This document shows positions 8,162-35,124 of a stretch of 64,000 nucleotides of DNA, in pieces. Source of the DNA: Eubacteriales bacterium mix99 (GTDB lineage: Bacteria; Bacillota; Clostridia; Caldicoprobacterales; DTU083). The DNA is taken from positions 2,388,500-2,452,499 of the forward strand of contig CP121690.1 of assembly GCA_038396605.1 (NCBI GenBank), in the 5' to 3' direction. Position 1 is the first letter of the stretch; every line of letters begins with the position of its first letter. The notes beneath the pieces were generated by a model. It was given only the letters and a program-made list of their open reading frames with translations, searched no databases and had not been told where the DNA came from. The translations under genes and the position numbers were made by a program.

Positions 8162-12701
<4,540 letters not shown>

Positions 12702-12728
12702 AGAAGTTTCTTTGCAGGACGCGGCTTC

Positions 12729-14039
12729 TCAATCGGACCGAAGCAGTTCCATCAGCGACCGGAGCGCTTCCAGTGCCGGGGAATCCAGTTTCATGGAGAA
12801 AGCCGCTTTCTCCTGAGCGTTTGTTTCCGGGATGGAAAGCAGGGAATGGCAAAGAAAAAGGAGTTCCGCCTGGTTGATGATATTTTTGCGGCTCCAGTCC
12901 GGCACAGGACCCGGATATCGAAGCTGCAGCCTCTTTGGAAACAGGGTAAGGACAACGGGCTTTTCCTTCATGGAAACCCGCCCTTCCCGGGACAGATAAA
13001 TCCATCGGAGAAGCTTTCGTATTTCCTTCTCATGGATCGGAGCATAGGATTGGATCATGTGGTCCAGAAAGGTATTCCTTATCCGGTCTATCGCTGCTTT
13101 TTGTTCCGTTTCCCCGGAATAGCGGGAGATCTCCTCCAGGCAGGACAGGACGGATCCGATCTCAAATGCGGTATAGCTGATGGCTTTCTTTTTGAAGGTA
13201 AACAGATTAAAAGCTTGCTGATAGGCAATGTTGTAAAGATTGCTGAACAGATGGAATATCTCTTCCAGCACGGTTTCCAGATTGACAAAGGGAAAGGAAC
13301 GCAGCAGGGCATTCAATATGTAGAACTGCTGGCCCATGGGAGCGGAAGCGGATCCGTCCGGTCCGTAATGAAACAGTCCGGACCGGCTCCGGCGGCTCAG
13401 GATTTCCAGAGAGGTGGCAGTCAGGAAAGAGTCCCGCCCGTGCCCGCCATTTTGGGTGTCCCGGACAGAGGCCGCCAGGGCGGCATGGGCCAGATCCATG
13501 GTCCGGATGTTGGAAATGTCCGTATCCCCGGCTATTTTGTCATACAGGCGGCGGATTTCCGGATCAAAATCAGAGGCGCTTTTCTGTGCAGGGCTGGTTT
13601 GAAGAAAGGTGGATCCCCCTTCCAGGACAGTGGAGATTTCTTCAATGGAGCAGGGGGTTTCTGCGACATATTCCAGACAAAACTGCAGCTGCAGCCCGGC
13701 AATGGCGCTCCATTCCTGCCGGTAGGATGGCTTTGCCAAAAAGGATTGCTCTTCGGTGACAAATTTGGGTAAAATTTCAGACAGGCGGGATAATACCTGT
13801 ATGGAGTATCCGGTTGCTTTCATACTGGGCCGGTCTGTATGGGGCAGCATCCCCAGTTTCCTTCCGGCCGCCTTTTCATACAGTGCGACAACCGGAGGAC
13901 AAGGCAGTCCGCGGATCAGGGGATCCTCGGAAGTCTGCCATTTTACCATTGGCAGAGTTGCCTCCGACAGATAAAATATGGACAGGGATTGAACCAGGGT
14001 AAAATCCAATATGGGATTTCCGGTTATGGATTGTGACAT
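12729..14039 (-). CDS. Conserved-looking protein of unknown function
   Basis: A 436-residue protein that I do not recognise. It is soluble by eye: no signal peptide, no membrane segment, no nucleotide-binding or metal motif. The sequence is mostly predicted helical with mixed charge; the middle (about 200-245) carries a Gly/His-rich stretch (QNGGHGRDSF ... GLFHYGPDGSASAPMG) between helical arrays. Evidence that it is real: GGAGGG 6 bases before the ATG, one long uninterrupted frame, a sensible amino-acid mix, and its position in the convergent and divergent gaps between ligA and yicC. A 308-codon frame on the opposite strand (12846-13772) is arginine/proline/glycine-rich and judged a shadow. 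Function unknown. Confidence 0.75.
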   Translation of the reverse strand: MSQSITGNPILDFTLVQSLSIFYLSEATLPMVKWQTSEDPLIRGLPCPPVVALYEKAAGRKLGMLPHTDRPSMKATGYSIQVLSRLSEILPKFVTEEQSFLAKPSYRQEWSAIAGLQLQFCLEYVAETPCSIEEISTVLEGGSTFLQTSPAQKSASDFDPEIRRLYDKIAGDTDISNIRTMDLAHAALAASVRDTQNGGHGRDSFLTATSLEILSRRSRSGLFHYGPDGSASAPMGQQFYILNALLRSFPFVNLETVLEEIFHLFSNLYNIAYQQAFNLFTFKKKAISYTAFEIGSVLSCLEEISRYSGETEQKAAIDRIRNTFLDHMIQSYAPIHEKEIRKLLRWIYLSREGRVSMKEKPVVLTLFPKRLQLRYPGPVPDWSRKNIINQAELLFLCHSLLSIPETNAQEKAAFSMKLDSPALEALRSLMELLRSD

Positions 14040-14143
14040 GCCAAGCCCTCCAATGAAAAGATTCTACATACTATCCATATGCGGGAAGGCCGACGCGTAG
14101 AAACAATATCGCGGAACCGTTTCACGAATTTTCCGGTTACCAC

Positions 14144-14173
14144 TTGCAAAGCCTGCCTGGACTGGGCTATAAT
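14144..14173 (+). promoter_or_regulatory. Promoter for the yicC-remA-gmk-rpoZ operon
   Basis: TTGCAA at 14144-14149, an 18-bp spacer and TATAAT at 14168-14173, about 40 bp before the yicC start. It sits in the divergent gap with the minus-strand unknown gene. Confidence 0.75.
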
Positions 14174-14213
14174 ACAAGGAAAGATGGTAAACAGGAAAGA
14201 TGGGAGGCTGTTC

Positions 14214-15092
14214 ATGGTTCTGAGCATGACGGGATTTGGACGGGGGGAAGCGGAAGATGCCCGCCGTAAAGTCCATGCGGAAATAAAAACCGTCAATCAT
14301 CGTTATTTGGATATTCATATGCATATGCCACGGTGTATGTCCATGCTGGAAGAGGATGCCAAGAAACAGATCCAGCAGGTGGTTACCCGCGGGCGGGTGG
14401 ATGTTACGGTGGAGTATGAAAACAAAGCACAGGATCTGATCGCTGTTTCCGTAAACGAACGTGTGGCAAATGCATATCGAAAGGCTTTTCAGGAGTTGGC
14501 TGAAAAGTTTGATATAGAGGATAAGCCGGATCTGGCGACTCTGTCCGGTATTGGGGATATCTTTACCGTAAACGAAGCTGAGGAGGATGAAGATGCTCTG
14601 CGGACCCTGTTGACTTCTGCACTGGAGCAGGCACTGCAGGCATTGACGAGGATGAGGAAAAAGGAAGGACAGTTTCTGATGGAGGATATCCGGGACCGTT
14701 CCGTTGTGATTCTGAAAATGGTGGATGCTATCGGGGAGCGTTCTCCCCTTGTAGTGGAGGAATATCGCAGAAAGCTGGAACAACGTCTGAAGGATTTGCT
14801 TTCGTCTTCCGATCTGGAGGAAACCCGTTTCAATACAGAGGTTGCCTATTTCGCAGATCGGTCCAGTATTACGGAGGAAATCATCCGGTTGCGAAGTCAT
14901 ATCGGGCAATTGCAGCAAATATTGAAAACAGGCGGCCCGATTGGAAGAAAGTTGGATTTTCTGATGCAGGAAATGAACCGGGAGGCGAATACCATCGGCT
15001 CCAAGGCGTCCGATCTTTTCATCACCAATCAGGTGGTTTCCCTGAAAAGTGAGATGGAGAAAATCCGTGAACAGGTTCAAAATCTTGAGTAA
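14214..15092 (+). CDS. yicC: YicC/YloC-family endoribonuclease
   Basis: A 292-residue protein of the YicC (YloC in Bacillus) family, reported as RNA-cleaving enzymes. It opens with the family signature MTGFGRGE and RKVHAEIKTVNHRYLDIHMHMPR, and ends with the conserved FLMQEMNREANTIGSKASD ... EMEKIREQVQN. The frame is open from 14079, but ATG 14214 has TGGGAGG about 6 bases upstream, lies after the promoter at 14144-14173, and gives the family's usual length. It heads the operon with remA, gmk and rpoZ, the same order as in Bacillus. Confidence 0.92.
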   Translation: MVLSMTGFGRGEAEDARRKVHAEIKTVNHRYLDIHMHMPRCMSMLEEDAKKQIQQVVTRGRVDVTVEYENKAQDLIAVSVNERVANAYRKAFQELAEKFDIEDKPDLATLSGIGDIFTVNEAEEDEDALRTLLTSALEQALQALTRMRKKEGQFLMEDIRDRSVVILKMVDAIGERSPLVVEEYRRKLEQRLKDLLSSSDLEETRFNTEVAYFADRSSITEEIIRLRSHIGQLQQILKTGGPIGRKLDFLMQEMNREANTIGSKASDLFITNQVVSLKSEMEKIREQVQNLE

Positions 15093-15116
15093 TACAGAAA
15101 GCAGGTAATTTCAGAT

Positions 15117-15389
15117 ATGAGGATCAAGTTAATCAACATCGGGTTTGGAAATATAGTTTCCGTAAACCGAATGATTGCGATCGTGAGTCCGGAGTCCGCT
15201 CCCATTAAGCGGATTATCCAGGATGCCAGGGACCGGGGCATGCTGATCGATGCCACCTATGGACGCAGGACCAGGGCAGTGATCATTATGGACAGTGATC
15301 ACATTATTCTCTCTGCGGTTCAACCGGAGACAGTGGCTCATCGGCTGAATTCCAGGGATACCGCCAATATGGATGGAGAAGAGGAGTAA
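15117..15389 (+). CDS. remA: RemA-like DNA-binding regulator (DUF370)
   Basis: A 90-residue protein of the RemA/DUF370 family. The family core is plain: INIGFGNIV near the N-terminus, [27 protein letters not shown] in the middle (basic, DNA-contacting) and [13 protein letters not shown] at the end. In Bacillus RemA oligomerises on DNA and activates matrix and osmoprotection genes; targets here are unknown. The gene lies between yicC (24 bp) and gmk (34 bp), its usual place in Firmicutes. Confidence 0.9.
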
Positions 15390-15423
15390 GCCGGGAAATG
15401 AATCATCTTGAAAGGATGAAAGC

Positions 15424-16035
15424 ATGAGGAAAAAGGGTTTGTTGATTGTGATATCCGGTCCATCCGGAGCGGGTAAGGGTACCATTTGTAAGGAATGGCT
15501 CCGCAGGCATCCGGAGACGGTTCTGTCTGTTTCGGTTACCACCAGGCCGCCCAGGCCTGGGGAGAAGGATGGAATCAATTATTTCTTCCGGACACCGGAA
15601 GAGTTTAAAAAAATGAAAGAGGAGAATGAGTTTCTCGAATACGCAGAGGTCTACGGACATCATTACGGTACGCCCAAAAAGTACGTACAGCAGCATTTGA
15701 TGGCAGGACAGGATGTGATTCTTGAAATTGACATTCAGGGTGCCCTTCAGGTGAAGGATCGTTTTGAAAAGGGTGTGTTTCTCTTTATCGTGCCTCCGAC
15801 CATGGACGAGCTGAAGGAGCGAATTACCAGGCGTGGAACCGAGGGCCGGGATGTTATACTGAAACGCTTTCATTGTGCCTTTGAAGAAATCAATTTTGTC
15901 AGGCGATATAATTATATTATCGTAAACGACACGGTGGAGGAAGCCGTTCAAAAGATAGAAGCCATCCTTCTGGCGGAAAAATGTCGTGTGGATCGGAATG
16001 AGGAATTGATATTGCAATTGCAGGGAGGAATATGA
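15424..16035 (+). CDS. gmk: Guanylate kinase
   Basis: A 203-residue guanylate kinase, phosphorylating GMP to GDP with ATP. The P-loop is GPSGAGKGT (11-19). The GMP-binding region shows SVTTRPPRPGEKDGINYFF and EYAEVYGHHYGTP, and the LID carries RITRRGTEG. Length is standard. ATG 15424 has GAAAGGATGA upstream. It is translated in tandem with rpoZ, whose ATG starts one base after the gmk stop codon. Confidence 0.96.
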   Translation: MRKKGLLIVISGPSGAGKGTICKEWLRRHPETVLSVSVTTRPPRPGEKDGINYFFRTPEEFKKMKEENEFLEYAEVYGHHYGTPKKYVQQHLMAGQDVILEIDIQGALQVKDRFEKGVFLFIVPPTMDELKERITRRGTEGRDVILKRFHCAFEEINFVRRYNYIIVNDTVEEAVQKIEAILLAEKCRVDRNEELILQLQGGI

Positions 16036-16036
16036 A

Positions 16037-16252
16037 ATGATTTTACCGACTCAGAATTCTTTGCTGGAAAAGGTAGACAGTAAATATACGCTTGTCGTGG
16101 AAGTGGCAAAGCGGGCAAGGCAGCTGGTAGCAGGGGAAAAGCCGCTGATAGGGGAAGAAGAGGACAACGAAGCTGCGAACCCGGTTTCCATAGCGGTAAA
16201 GGAAGTGGATGCCGATCTGATTCATTATCAGCATGAAAAAAAGCAGGCATAG
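16037..16252 (+). CDS. rpoZ: RNA polymerase omega subunit
   Basis: A 71-residue omega subunit, which helps RNA polymerase assembly by latching beta-prime. The conserved core is visible as LLEKVDSKYTLVVEVAKRARQL, followed by PVSIAVKEVDADLIHY. The ATG is 1 base after the gmk stop with the GGAGG of CAGGAGGAATATGA inside the end of gmk, so translation is coupled. coaBC, which usually follows in Firmicutes, is absent; a terminator comes next. Confidence 0.92.
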   Translation: MILPTQNSLLEKVDSKYTLVVEVAKRARQLVAGEKPLIGEEEDNEAANPVSIAVKEVDADLIHYQHEKKQA

Positions 16253-16272
16253 GAATTACCGCATTGTTTTAA

Positions 16273-16295
16273 AAAGGTACCTGGTACCTTTTTTT
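16273..16295 (+). terminator. Intrinsic terminator between rpoZ and priA
   Basis: AAAGGTAC (16273-16280), a CTG loop and GTACCTTT (16284-16291), then more T. Perfect 8-bp stem. Confidence 0.85.
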
Positions 16296-16354
16296 GTTTG
16301 CCGGAGAAAACCGCTTTCCCATTCTGCCGGGCAAGGAAACGGTGAAAGGAGTGC

Positions 16355-18610
16355 ATGTCGTTGGAAAACAGAAAGTATGCCGGAGTGGTGATCGATCAGG
16401 CGCATCCTGCCCTGGATAAACTGTTTCATTACAGCATTCCGCCGACCCTTGCCAACAAAGTCGAAGTCGGCCTGAGGGTTCAGGTCTCTTTCGGCCGCAG
16501 TATCCTCCAGGGGTATATTTTGTCGCTGGACGAAAAAGCCGATATCCCGGAGGAAAAAATCAAGCCTCTGAAAAAGTTGATGGATCCCCATCCTGTTTTG
16601 GGAAAAAGCATGATACCCCTGATTTACTGGATGAAAGAGGAGTATCACTGTATGTTGATCGAAGCGATCCGCTGCTGCATCCCTCCCGGTATCCGGGGGA
16701 ATGTAAAGGGGAAGACACAGCAGGTGGTTTATCTGACCGATACAGATTCCCTGAAGGAGTGGATTTCCTCCGTGGAGAACCGTTCCCCCAAAATGGCCGG
16801 TATTCTGCGGGCCCTGGAGCATAGAGACGGGATGCCGACAGGGGAGCTGCTGGAGTTGACCGGTGCATCCCGGTCCAGTATTCACTCCCTTCGGAAAAGG
16901 GGATATATCCGGATCCGGGAAGAAGAGACCTATCGGAATCCATGGCAGGCAGAGGAGATTTCCACCGTCCCGCCCATACTCAACGAAGAGCAGAAAAAAG
17001 CAATGCAGGCGATTTTGGTGCGCATTCGTGTCGGACACGGAACCTTGCTGTTGCATGGTGTAACAGGCAGCGGCAAGACCGAGGTCTATATGAAGGCAGC
17101 GGATCTTGTCCTGAAGCAGGGGAAACAGGTCATTGTTCTTGTACCGGAGATTTCCCTGACGCCCCAGACGGTGGGACGCTTCAAGGGGCGTTTTGGGGAC
17201 AATGTCGCCGTTCTCCACAGCGGCCTGTCCCTTGGAGAGCGTTATGATGAATGGAGAAGAATCCGGAATAATGAGGTGCAGATTGTCGTTGGAGCCAGAT
17301 CTGCCGTGTTTGCTCCCATGGAGCATCTTGGGATGATCATCATTGACGAAGCCCATGAAGACAGCTATAAGTCCGAAGTGAGGCCGCGATACCATGCGCG
17401 GGATGTTGCAGCCAGGCGCTGTGAGACGGAAGGCGCTGTCCTGGTTCTGGGAAGTGCCACGCCGGCACTGGAGGATTATACCAGGGCATTGCGCGGAGAA
17501 TATCAACTAGTGGAAATGAACGAGCGGGTGGATCATCGGGTGCTCCCGCCGGTTGATATCATTGATATGCGCCGGGAACTGGAGCTGGGCAACCGCAGTA
17601 TTTTCAGCCAGGAAATGTATCGTTCCCTTTGCGATACCCTTCGCCGCGGCGAACAGGCAATCCTTCTGATTAACCGGCGGGGGTATGCACAGTTTGTTTC
17701 CTGCAGAAGCTGCGGCGCTGTCATTAAATGCAGGAATTGCGATGTTTCCCTGACCTATCATGCAAAGGAGCGAATGCTGAAATGCCATTACTGCGGTCAC
17801 CAGGAACCTTATCCGAGAAAATGTCCGGAATGCGGCAGCCGCTATATCAAGAACTTCGGTCTGGGGACGCAAAAGGTGGAGGCGGAGCTGGGAAAGCTTT
17901 TCCCATCCGCAGGTTTGCTTCGGATGGACATGGATACCACCAGCCGGAAAGGAGCTCATCACCGGATTCTGGATGCTTTCGGGAAAGGGGATTATGATAT
18001 TCTGCTGGGAACCCAGATGGTTGCGAAAGGGCTGGATTTTCCCAATGTAACTCTGGTTGGGGTATTGGCAGCGGATGCTTCCCTGAACCTTCCCGATTAC
18101 CGAAGCTGTGAAAAAACTTTTCAATTGATTACCCAGGTAGCCGGGCGGACAGGAAGGGGCAGAAAGCCGGGACATGTGGTGGTCCAGTCCTACCAACCGG
18201 AACATTATGCCATCGAATATGCTTCGCATCATGATTATGAGGGATTTTACCGGAAAGAGATTGACATCCGGCGACAATTTGATTATCCTCCTTTTTCCCA
18301 TATTATTCGCGTTCTGATCACCGGGGAAAAAGAAAGGGAATTGGCACAATTCTCAAATAATATGGTAGAATGGATAAGGAAGCATATTGGCAGGGATATG
18401 CTTTTGAAGAGAGGGTTGCTGGATCTGGGTGCCTATCCCGCTCCGATTGAGAGAATCAACAATAAATACCGGTGGCAGGTTCTGGTTCGGATCCGGACGC
18501 AGCAGGAATTCCAGGATCGTTATCATATTCTGGCAGGGGGACTGTTGAAAACGTTCTATCCGACCCAATTCTCCATTACCCTGGATTTCAACCCCCTCAG
18601 CCTAATATAG
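16355..18610 (+). CDS. priA: Primosomal replication restart helicase PriA
   Basis: A 751-residue superfamily 2 helicase that reloads the replisome at collapsed forks. The N-terminal 3'-DNA-binding domain (about 1-105) has VIDQAHPALDKLFHYSIP and RVQVSFGRS. The helicase core has Walker A GVTGSGKTEVY (near 235) and DEAHEDSYK as motif II. The zinc-binding insert carries eight cysteines (CRSCGAVIKCRNCDVSL ... CHYCG ... CPECGS, about 450-495). Late motifs are GTQMVAKGLDFPNVTLV and QVAGRTGRG. ATG 16355 follows GAAAGGAG closely; TTG 16361 is an alternative. def follows 16 bp later. Confidence 0.95.
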   Translation: MSLENRKYAGVVIDQAHPALDKLFHYSIPPTLANKVEVGLRVQVSFGRSILQGYILSLDEKADIPEEKIKPLKKLMDPHPVLGKSMIPLIYWMKEEYHCMLIEAIRCCIPPGIRGNVKGKTQQVVYLTDTDSLKEWISSVENRSPKMAGILRALEHRDGMPTGELLELTGASRSSIHSLRKRGYIRIREEETYRNPWQAEEISTVPPILNEEQKKAMQAILVRIRVGHGTLLLHGVTGSGKTEVYMKAADLVLKQGKQVIVLVPEISLTPQTVGRFKGRFGDNVAVLHSGLSLGERYDEWRRIRNNEVQIVVGARSAVFAPMEHLGMIIIDEAHEDSYKSEVRPRYHARDVAARRCETEGAVLVLGSATPALEDYTRALRGEYQLVEMNERVDHRVLPPVDIIDMRRELELGNRSIFSQEMYRSLCDTLRRGEQAILLINRRGYAQFVSCRSCGAVIKCRNCDVSLTYHAKERMLKCHYCGHQEPYPRKCPECGSRYIKNFGLGTQKVEAELGKLFPSAGLLRMDMDTTSRKGAHHRILDAFGKGDYDILLGTQMVAKGLDFPNVTLVGVLAADASLNLPDYRSCEKTFQLITQVAGRTGRGRKPGHVVVQSYQPEHYAIEYASHHDYEGFYRKEIDIRRQFDYPPFSHIIRVLITGEKERELAQFSNNMVEWIRKHIGRDMLLKRGLLDLGAYPAPIERINNKYRWQVLVRIRTQQEFQDRYHILAGGLLKTFYPTQFSITLDFNPLSLI

Positions 18611-18626
18611 AAAAGAGTGATATAGT

Positions 18627-19085
18627 ATGGCCTTAAGGAAGATTCGGAATTACCGGAAAGATGATATTCTTCGAAAAAAGGCAAAAGAAGTGACAAAAGC
18701 CGATGACAGGGTGCGGTTACTGATCTCGGACATGATTGATACCATGTATCACGCGGATGGAGTTGGCCTGGCCGCCCCCCAGGTCGGAATATTGAAGCGG
18801 ATTGTGGTGATTGACGTGGGAGATGGGGTTCATGCTTTGATTAATCCGGAGATTATCAGTCAGTCCGGGGAGGAAATTGATTATGAAGGCTGTCTGAGCC
18901 TCCCGGGCATCCGGGGGAAAGTCAAACGGCCTGCCCATGTTGTCGTAAGGGCTCTGGACCCGGACGGGAAGGAAACAGAGCTCAGGGCAGACGGACTGCT
19001 GGCCCGGGCCGTGTGCCATGAAACCGATCACCTGGATGGAATATTGTTCATTGATAAAGTCCTGCCGGAAACATTGGAGGGCTGA
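18627..19085 (+). CDS. def: Peptide deformylase
   Basis: A 152-residue metalloenzyme that removes the formyl group from new N-termini. All three family motifs are present: GVGLAAPQVG (motif 1), EGCLSLPG (motif 2, metal cysteine) and CHETDHLDG (motif 3, HExxH). The protein begins ALRKIRNYRKDDILRKKAKEV as in type 1 Gram-positive and Clostridia enzymes. Its stop lies 3 bases before fmt, which does the opposite reaction on the initiator tRNA, the usual pairing. Confidence 0.96.
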   Translation: MALRKIRNYRKDDILRKKAKEVTKADDRVRLLISDMIDTMYHADGVGLAAPQVGILKRIVVIDVGDGVHALINPEIISQSGEEIDYEGCLSLPGIRGKVKRPAHVVVRALDPDGKETELRADGLLARAVCHETDHLDGILFIDKVLPETLEG

Positions 19086-19088
19086 GTA

Positions 19089-20045
19089 TTGAAAATTATC
19101 TTTATGGGTACCCCGGATTTTTCCATTCCTTCGGCAGATGCCGTTCAAAAGAGTGGAAATGATTTGATTGCCGTCGTTACACAGCCGGACCGACCAAAGG
19201 GCAGAGGAAAACAGGTTACCTTTTCTCCCGTCAAGAAGTGGGCGGAGGAGAGGAATATTTCCATTTATCAACCGGTCCGGATCAAGGGGGATATGGCCTT
19301 TCTGGAAAAAATCAGGCAGCTGCAGCCGGATCTGATCGTAACGGCTGCCTTTGGCCAGATTCTTCCAAAGGATTTTCTTGCCGTTCCTACGCTTGGCTGC
19401 ATCAATGTCCATGCATCCCTGCTGCCGGCCTACAGGGGGGCGTCCCCCATTCAGCAGGCTCTCATCAGTGGAGCGGACCGAACCGGCATATCGGTTATGT
19501 ATATGGATGCAGGGATGGACACCGGGGATATCATCCAACAGGAGGAAATCCGGATTGCAGAGGAGGACGATGCAGGGCAACTTCATGACAGACTTGCTGT
19601 CCTGGGCGGGCGCGTCCTTTCCCGGGTTCTGAAACAGTTTGCAGACGGGAAACCGGAAGGGGTTCCCCAGGATGCCGCAAAGGCGACCTACTGCAGCAAA
19701 ATAGAGAAATCCATGGGCGAAATCCGCTGGGAACAAAAGGCTTCCACGGTCCGGAACCTTGTACGGGGCCTGACCCCCTGGCCGGGCGCCTATACCTTTC
19801 TCCGGGAAACCCGTTTGAAGGTATGGAAGGTCATGGAGTGGGAATACTTTACAAATAACACTGTTCCAGGTACGGTTCTCCGGGCGGACAGGAATATTGG
19901 CCTGATCGTGGCCTGCCGGGACGGTGCCCTGCGCGTTGCAGAGCTTCAGATGCCTGGCGGCCGGCCCATGTCGGATCTGGATTATCTGAGGGGCAACCGG
20001 ATTGAGGTGGGCATTTGTCTGGGCAGGACAAAAAGGGGAGAGTGA
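19089..20045 (+). CDS. fmt: Methionyl-tRNA formyltransferase
   Basis: A 318-residue enzyme that formylates initiator Met-tRNA with 10-formyl-tetrahydrofolate. N-terminal formyltransferase core: FMGTPDFSIPS, VTQPDRPKGRG, and the catalytic INVHASLLPAYRGASPI with the Asn/His pair, then DAGMDTGDI. The C-terminal OB-like tRNA-binding domain runs from about 205. The start is TTG 19089, with TTGGAGGG about 7 bases upstream inside the end of def. Its last codons overlap rsmB by 4 bases. Confidence 0.95.
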   Translation: MKIIFMGTPDFSIPSADAVQKSGNDLIAVVTQPDRPKGRGKQVTFSPVKKWAEERNISIYQPVRIKGDMAFLEKIRQLQPDLIVTAAFGQILPKDFLAVPTLGCINVHASLLPAYRGASPIQQALISGADRTGISVMYMDAGMDTGDIIQQEEIRIAEEDDAGQLHDRLAVLGGRVLSRVLKQFADGKPEGVPQDAAKATYCSKIEKSMGEIRWEQKASTVRNLVRGLTPWPGAYTFLRETRLKVWKVMEWEYFTNNTVPGTVLRADRNIGLIVACRDGALRVAELQMPGGRPMSDLDYLRGNRIEVGICLGRTKRGE

Positions 20046-33912: not shown

Positions 33913-35124
33913 TCAGTGTCTGCCCGACCGGGCTTTTTCCGATTTTTCGAAAAGACAGCACAGGACGGCAAGCAGGGCGATGCAGAGGATACCTGCAACA
34001 AGCAGATGCAGGGACGAAAGAAGGATCTCCTTCCACCCCGGGGAAAAGGCTCCCGGGAAAGGGCGAAATACTTCCGATGCTGCGGGATAAAGCAACCGGG
34101 TCAACGGAATGGACAGCAGGGCAGCCAGGATCCCATGAAGGAATTTGCACAGGGCATACAGGCTGAATCGCACCCCGGTTCCGGACAGGAGGCTGGCAGT
34201 CTGCGCATGGATAGACAGTCCGCTCCATCCAACCAGAAAGGAGACGGCTGCAATTTTCTGCTGCAGGGAAACAGAAGTCATGCTGACCAGTTTTCCGCCG
34301 GTGGTTACCTCAAGCATTCCACCGATGATGGACTTTACCAGGGAATGGCCGATATGGAATGGCTTAAGAGGAATGGACACGACAGTGGCAATCGCATCGA
34401 TTACTTTGATTCTCATCAGCAGATCGATGACTACGGAAAAAAACACTATAAAGCCTCCCACCATCAGCAGGACGTTGACGGAGTTCCGGACAGCGTCACC
34501 AAGGAGCTCTCCGATGGGTCTGCCGTCCCGTTCCCTTGCATCGCTGAGAGCCGACAGGGCTTTGGAAAGACGAACAGAGGATTTTTGCCTCTTTTCGCCT
34601 TTGGTATGATAAAAGCGGAATGCCAGGCCAATCAGGATGGCTGCACTGAAATGGCTGAGCAGGAGAATTGTTCCGCTTTCCGGACTGTTCAGCATACCGA
34701 CGGCCACAGCCCCCACCAGGAACAGTGGGCCGGAAGTGGAGCAGAAGCTCAGGATTCGCTGTGCTTCGTCCACGGTGATTTTTTTCTGCTTCCGAAACAG
34801 GGAAACCAGCCGAGCCCCTGTTGGATATCCGGAGGTGATACTCATGATCCAGATAAAGGAACTGCAACCGGGACAACGGAAGAGCGGCCCCATAACCGGA
34901 TCCAGGAGAACAGACAAAAAATCCACCACCCCCAGTCCTGCCATGATTTCCGATGCAATAAAAAAGGGAAGAAGGGCCGGAAATACTGAATGCAGGAAAA
35001 CATCCAGCCCGGACAGGGCGGCTTTGTAAGCTTCTTTTGGGAATGCCAGAATGGATATCAAGAGGAGAAGGGCAGTCAGACCGGGAAGAGCAGCATGCCA
35101 GGTCCTGGATTTCTGATGATTCAT
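33913..35124 (-). CDS. ylbJ: Sporulation integral membrane protein YlbJ
   Basis: A 403-residue polytopic membrane protein of the YlbJ family, needed in Bacillus for proper spore cortex. Roughly eight to ten hydrophobic segments are visible. Conserved pieces: SVFPALLPFFIASEIMAGLG, the SGYPTGARLVS motif and FCSTSGPLFLVGAVAVGM, arranged like the gate-domain nucleoside-transporter fold. A signal-like N-terminal helix starts at about residue 12. ATG at 35124 has CAGGAGGCTT upstream. It is transcribed away from ylbK and converges on the coiled-coil gene without spacer. Confidence 0.92.
   Translation of the reverse strand: MNHQKSRTWHAALPGLTALLLLISILAFPKEAYKAALSGLDVFLHSVFPALLPFFIASEIMAGLGVVDFLSVLLDPVMGPLFRCPGCSSFIWIMSITSGYPTGARLVSLFRKQKKITVDEAQRILSFCSTSGPLFLVGAVAVGMLNSPESGTILLLSHFSAAILIGLAFRFYHTKGEKRQKSSVRLSKALSALSDARERDGRPIGELLGDAVRNSVNVLLMVGGFIVFFSVVIDLLMRIKVIDAIATVVSIPLKPFHIGHSLVKSIIGGMLEVTTGGKLVSMTSVSLQQKIAAVSFLVGWSGLSIHAQTASLLSGTGVRFSLYALCKFLHGILAALLSIPLTRLLYPAASEVFRPFPGAFSPGWKEILLSSLHLLVAGILCIALLAVLCCLFEKSEKARSGRH

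Follow-up and report, generated by a model that had tools for sequence, protein, structure and literature searches.

The window analysed here is a stretch of 64,000 nucleotides of contig CP121690.1 from Eubacteriales bacterium mix99. On its minus strand, at positions 12729 to 14039, lies a gene of 436 codons, with its ATG at 14039 and its stop at 12729, whose product is a predicted (alpha/alpha)6-barrel protein, as judged from the reading frame, its orthologues, structure models and fold searches. The gene is flanked by ligA (10662–12701) and yicC, both on the plus strand, and a ribosome-binding site, GGAGGG, can be read from the sequence at 14046–14051 (minus strand). A preliminary description of the window had placed a 436-residue ORF with a strong GGAGG site on the opposite strand between ligA and yicC, exactly as found here. 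GGAGG-like sites are also present 5′ of the start in those orthologues whose upstream DNA was examined; in genome G004 the site lies 5′ of a downstream ATG. The gene is single copy in its own genome (the next match has an E-value of 0.13), and its product has no membrane-like segment, the highest 19-residue Kyte–Doolittle mean being 1.1 here and 1.1 to 1.9 over 12 orthologues. No RNA family was found near the gene, within positions 10000–20000 of the window.

The frame is open in all 12 full-length orthologues, the own copy counted, and the frame loss in close relatives that the preliminary description had suggested looking for was not seen. Antisense frames, in contrast, are open for up to 347 codons in the own genome and its nearest relative, but for 29–135 codons in 10 others. 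A 308-residue ORF on the plus strand (12846–13772), antisense to the gene, is not open in relatives beyond the nearest one (G001), and is a shadow ORF of the gene. Third codon positions hold 85 of the 158 differences between the gene and its nearest relative; for this pair, dS is 0.315 and dN is 0.081 (dN/dS of about 0.26), as compared to ratios of 0.21 for yicC, 0.13 for ligA and 0.16 for gmk in the same two genomes. The gene is under purifying selection, if less constrained than these housekeeping neighbours. That it could be a spurious ORF or a decaying remnant might be argued from its absence in G007, G018 and G024, three f1 and f4 genomes in which the locus was examined (see below), but this reading, to which we assign practically no probability, is already refuted by the results: the frame is kept in 12 of 12 copies while the antisense frames are not, dN/dS is about 0.26, the upstream element is conserved and the predicted fold is confident (see below). 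The ORF is confirmed as a genuine gene rather than a chance ORF.

A protein search of 61 genomes (the own genome and 60 relatives) found matches in 13, and a profile built from 12 orthologues recovered exactly these 13 among the 30 genomes examined for the order. These comprise 11 of the 13 genomes of the own family (f1) and two of the four genomes of f4; none of the seven genomes of f2 and none of the six of f3 has the gene. In one f1 genome, G006, the gene is split over two contig ends, and full-length copies therefore number 12 of the 13. A wider search of 391 genomes of the class gave only six matches, all in members of the same order, and in 398 genomes of the phylum no genome other than the own one matched below an E-value of 0.01. 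Matches in 14 other genomes of the phylum (E-values of 0.011 to 0.44) were rejected; they are short stretches, nine of them with internal stops. The gene had been described as an orphan; in the strict sense it is not one, with orthologues in 13 of the 30 genomes of the order. If the gene were mobile or viral, relatives would be expected on phages, on plasmids or in viral contigs; none was found in such sequences, and none of 16 candidate stretches checked was related. The only named relative, with 85% identity, comes from the metagenome assembly ‘Firmicutes bacterium UBA4874’, which is unclassified below Bacillota in the NCBI taxonomy; this sequence is the same contig as G001 and was not counted as a further genome. 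No literature on the gene or on UBA4874 was found among the matches listed.

The gene is oriented away from yicC in all 13 copies. It adjoins yicC in f1, whereas in the two f4 genomes that carry it one gene lies between the two: an AIRS-domain protein gene in G015 (by Pfam) and a 330-codon gene in G021. On the opposite side the neighbour is convergent with it in all copies. In three genomes (the own one, G001 and G009) this neighbour is ligA; G005 has an Amidase-family (GatA-type) gene there, G004 and G015 have gatB, and G008 has a gene for a peptidoglycan-binding amidase. These identities cover seven of the 13 copies, those in G003, G006, G010, G011, G012 and G021 falling outside. Sixteen genomes that lack the gene nevertheless keep the yicC cluster, and nothing similar to the gene was found there among ORFs of at least 90 residues. 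The gene preceding yicC in these 16 is an AIRS gene in nine, gatB in five and an amidase gene in two; in one f1 genome, G007, about 100 bp separate gatB from yicC. The seventeenth genome without the gene, G002, has no yicC match either and is uninformative on the locus. The preliminary description had the gene ‘inserted’ into, and interrupting, a conserved block. This is misleading, since the gene occupies the same position across its family, and it is not a recent insertion into the own genome. What sets the own locus apart is the absence of the adjoining gatA/gatB genes that many relatives have there.

Several features of the interval between ligA and yicC can be noted beside this. In relatives (loci L017, L022, L024, L026 and L070–L085) the interval often holds gatA/gatB, a peptidoglycan-binding amidase gene or an AIRS-domain gene (AIR synthase related); none of these is present in the interval of the own genome, G001 or G009. 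The AIRS-domain gene lies directly before yicC in seven of seven f2 genomes and in at least three of the four f4 genomes, those other than G021 (L072–L076, L082–L085, L026), and is absent from this position in the f1 and f3 loci examined.

The history of the gene was considered on a tree of YicC and SpoIVA covering 24 of the 30 genomes; the six left out (G002, G004, G010, G012, G017 and G025) lacked one of the two proteins or had one that the motif did not pick up. This tree does not place f1 and f4 as sister families (support 93/91). The presence of the gene, in 10 of the 24 genomes, requires three changes by parsimony, against a mean of 8.0 with shuffled labels. Since f1 and f4 are not sisters, either descent from an ancestral copy, lost about five times, or a transfer into the same site could account for the distribution; ancestry is favoured over transfer because both the site and the upstream element are shared. 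An ancestral gene with several losses would thus fit best.

No significant match to Pfam, NCBIfam, PHROG or PADLOC was obtained with the protein or with any of its 12 orthologues (best E-value of about 0.03), in line with the preliminary description, which could not place the protein in a family. A single-sequence search against the sequences of solved structures returned nothing better than an E-value of 0.39; in a profile search of the same kind, poxvirus A49 (76 positions, E-value of 0.002) was taken as a chance match between helical stretches. The protein represents a sequence family undescribed in the libraries searched, with a fold that is well known.

The fold was predicted with AF2. 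The model of the protein has a pLDDT of 82.7 and a pTM of 0.87, from a shallow alignment of 12 rows (Neff of 3.1). It shows six helical hairpins, 9–24/73–92, 104–127/132–148, 155–171/180–196, 204–215/235–252, 255–272/291–307 and 311–330/390–401 (the pairing of helices is our reading of the model topology), and an extra helix at 337–351. A second model, of the G015 orthologue (25% identical), has a pLDDT of 77.1 and a pTM of 0.85; the two are not fully independent, as most alignment rows are common to both. With VIA-align, run on the Foldseek top 1000, the best match of the first model is the cellobiose 2-epimerase 5zhb_B (Z of 24.6, rmsd of 3.8, 318 residues aligned, spanning residues 7–410) and all of the best 50 rows have a Z of at least 19.5; the best match of the G015 model is 4z4j (Z of 26.7, rmsd of 3.6, 317 aligned). 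Both best scores are well above about 14, the value quoted with this tool for helical models that have no clear match. The best 50 rows of each list are mostly sugar epimerases and isomerases, GH76 enzymes, unsaturated glucuronyl hydrolases and related carbohydrate-active barrels. Foldseek against the PDB gave 793 matches, only three of them at an E-value of 0.001 or below, with poor superpositions (query TM-score of 0.33–0.48 and rmsd of 7.7–12.1 for the best 50 of the 793); its best matches are cellobiose 2-epimerases and related ones, interspersed with GH76 enzymes and linalool dehydratase. The viral structure library BFVD held no fold match to the model at an E-value of 0.001 or below. Over its full length the protein is predicted to form an (alpha/alpha)6 barrel, with the cellobiose 2-epimerases as its closest match, and both models support the alpha/alpha toroid that had been guessed at from the sequence. 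The Gly/His-rich loop that had served as the clue (around residue 200), however, is variable between orthologues.

Polar residues invariant in all 12 orthologues are Tyr54, Thr76, Gln117, Cys121, Glu140, Glu212 and Tyr273; Ser20, Ser25, Lys56, Arg216 and Gln238 are kept in 11, and Lys369 and Arg370, among others, in 10. Glu140 and Glu212, both on helices, are the only invariant acids. No Asp column is invariant in the alignment (position 12, in helix 1, has Asp in 10 of 12), and no His is conserved, the commonest His column, at position 336, having it in eight of 12. No signature acid or His pair of a known barrel enzyme was apparent.

These columns bear directly on the AGE superfamily (PF07221: cellobiose 2-epimerases, N-acylglucosamine 2-epimerases and YihS), with which the protein shares the predicted (alpha/alpha)6 barrel over nearly its full length, at 7% and 8% identity in the best VIA alignments. 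A highly diverged AGE member, still epimerising or isomerising a sugar, would agree with the position of AGE structures at the top of both VIA lists, and PMC6333288 cites a report of one AGE whose catalytic pair is not made of histidines. Against it, none of the 12 members matches PF07221 up to an E-value of 5, in searches where the HMMER filters drop most matches above about 0.1, and hhalign of the two families gave a probability of 0.1%, a weak test with only 12 and eight rows. Moreover, eight aligned AGE proteins all keep Arg55, Tyr111, Asn172, His176, His248, Glu251 and His383 (YihS numbering), among other residues, and none of these has a visible counterpart in the present family. Two histidines, His247 and His377, are described as essential in CsCE (in a passage of PMC5726027), and whether AGEs proper use catalytic histidines is disputed, as also cited in PMC6333288; the two catalytic histidines of the superfamily are in any case absent from the present family. 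With no conserved His and no detectable sequence link, we do not file the protein in the AGE superfamily, and we consider a diverged AGE member improbable; the predicted likeness is one of architecture, and membership is not claimed.

The same comparison can be made for the other barrels. GH76 alpha-mannanases and GH88/GH105-type unsaturated glucuronyl hydrolases have the barrel of our model (Z of about 19–23). Glycosidases of these types use Asp residues in catalysis, as the titles of Asp mutants among the structure matches partly show; their catalytic Asp pair is not found here, and no Pfam glycosidase family, GH76, GH88 and GH105 included, was matched by the 12 members up to an E-value of 5 (under the same HMMER filters). 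The helical architecture is also shared with the AprG transaldolase (Z of 20.0–20.7), DsbH-type proteins (19.9–20.9) and drimenyl diphosphate synthase (19.5), and, by Foldseek only, with linalool dehydratase-isomerase (E-value of 1.5e-3 or weaker). Class II cyclases carry a DxDD signature and linalool dehydratase paired Cys residues, neither of which is a conserved column in this family. Because the VIA lists also hold the AprG transaldolase, drimenyl diphosphate synthase, DsbH-type proteins and phage-tail domains, the fold alone gives no function.

The protein could instead be an (alpha/alpha)6 toroid without catalytic activity, either a pseudoenzyme or a scaffold that binds, for instance, another protein or a glycan. 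The lack of a conserved His, the confinement of the invariant acids to two helical positions and the hydrophobic or structural nature of many invariant residues would all suit such a protein, as would the peripheral role suggested by the absence of the gene from sporulating relatives that keep the locus (see below). Yet seven polar residues are invariant down to 25% identity, seemingly more than a bare scaffold needs, and the rows of the fold lists are mostly enzymes. We regard a non-catalytic toroid as possible, if less probable than an enzyme; the ‘scaffold’ of the preliminary description is likewise unproven, the nearest folds being mostly carbohydrate-active enzymes.

Our preferred reading, to which we give a probability of about 0.5, is that the gene has been inherited vertically within one clostridial order and encodes an (alpha/alpha)6-barrel protein that is soluble, intracellular and probably active on carbohydrates. 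The product is most likely an intracellular, lineage-restricted and dispensable carbohydrate-acting enzyme; just two kinds of evidence, the predicted fold and the conserved polar residues, point to this role, which we consider the likeliest. The enzyme would act in the barrel cavity on a small ligand, probably a carbohydrate. In the model the cavity would be built from the long loops and, in each hairpin, the N-terminus of the second helix, and its region, with residues assigned solely from helix topology, would keep Tyr54, Lys56, Thr76, Gln238 and Tyr273, as well as Lys369 and Arg370 (10 of 12) and, on a helix, Glu140. As no histidine is kept, its chemistry would not be the histidine-pair epimerisation seen in cellobiose 2-epimerases. 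The undescribed sequence family joins the many carbohydrate and terpene enzymes that have this fold; should the protein prove enzymatic, it would be an (alpha/alpha)6 enzyme lacking the catalytic signatures known so far. As things stand, this is a sound annotation of an undescribed gene, and no surprise.

Upstream of the gene, a −10-like GCATA (14078–14082, minus strand) is present in 13 of 13 orthologues, the split copy included. It ends 36–39 nucleotides before the called start in 11 of them; the exceptions are G004 (20 nucleotides as called, 35 from the downstream ATG) and G006 (75 nucleotides). A −35-like TTCTAC, identified by comparison of the upstream elements, lies 14 nucleotides from it (14097–14102, minus strand), and 10 of 13 orthologues have the full element, T[TA]CTA[CT]-N14-GCATA, without any mismatch; G012, G015 and G021 deviate from it. 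When the two halves were sought with 13–15 nucleotides between them in 592,986 bases of the loci, five further matches were found, none with exactly 14, against seven for the reversed control. In 500 mononucleotide shuffles no 5-mer occurred in more than eight of the 13 regions, against 11 for GCATA in the stretch counted, a contrast that is inflated by kinship. We infer that the element is the gene's own promoter, from which it would be transcribed.

The −10 half looks like that of a mother-cell (sigma-E/sigma-K type) sporulation promoter. By eye, GCATA resembles the sites that the same family has at SpoIVA (CATATACAT) and at dpaA-like genes (CATATGATG); across the order the sites upstream of SpoIVA are TCATATT-N12-CATATACAT-like and those upstream of the dpaA-like genes GCACC...CATATGATG-like, the latter read at 22 of 25 loci, some with poor starts or little sequence and with the own-genome copy (L171) outside. 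We write ‘dpaA-like’ because the 25 strong matches to the dpaA family are all below the curated cut-off and weak matches occur in 14 of 14 control genomes. In B. subtilis the −10 consensus is KCATANANTN for sigma-E and GCATANNNTA for sigma-K (in a table of PMC3416734); the −35 element is given as ATA for sigma-E and AC for sigma-K in PMC3789822. With the B. subtilis consensus of PMC3416734 and the spacings in a figure legend of PMC517825, the sigma-E scores of the 13 upstream regions did not stand out from shuffles (p of 0.0975–0.995), and sigma-K scores reached p < 0.05 in four, only two of which (G009 and G004) were at the conserved site. A CATA at promoter distance, as in the mother-cell regulons, is present, but the key −35 bases are not: most orthologues have CTA at the sigma-E register. 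As the consensus test went against the mother-cell reading, we keep a sporulation promoter only as a lead.

The pattern AC-N14-GCATANNNATA has 10 matches in the own genome, the gene and nine others, against one control match. Seven of the nine lie inside open frames of more than 200 codons, and a single one precedes an ORF with a ribosome-binding site without being enclosed in a larger open frame. If the spacing is lengthened by one base, the gene itself is missed and the counts are six matches against 15 for the control, and five against 10.

The gene could belong to the mother-cell programme, as a coat, cortex or spore-polysaccharide enzyme, a reading that is compatible with the preferred one. 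The order sporulates, with SpoIVA in 28 of 30 genomes, and the GCATA of all 13 orthologues is like the SpoIVA and dpaA-like sites by eye. However, the 13 upstream regions mostly score no better than shuffles against the B. subtilis consensus, the −35 CTA of most copies is neither ATA nor AC, and only one of the nine other own-genome matches is suitably placed. SpoIVA is, moreover, present without the gene in G007, G018 and G024, in seven of seven f2 genomes and in five of six f3 genomes. We hold a sporulation gene to be possible but doubtful; if expressed in the mother cell, it would be a lineage-specific spore gene. Rather improbable, in our estimate, is the most specific version, a new non-histidine (alpha/alpha)6 enzyme family that would be expressed in the mother cell, would modify a spore-surface or cortex sugar and would have stayed at one site since the origin of the order while being repeatedly lost. 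YabG, described in PMC10681294 as a genomic signature of endosporulation, could not be used as a sigma-K yardstick, as one weak partial match was all that the 30 genomes of the order contained.

Two further features of the window may be mentioned. A scan with the sigma-A consensus places a putative promoter of the divergent yicC, TTGCAA-18-TATAAT, at 14144–14173 on the plus strand; the scan found two such sites, against a mean of 1.3 in shuffles. At 33913–35124, on the minus strand, lies a gene for a sporulation membrane protein, which we take to be YlbJ-like, with CATATATTA upstream, in line with a spore former.
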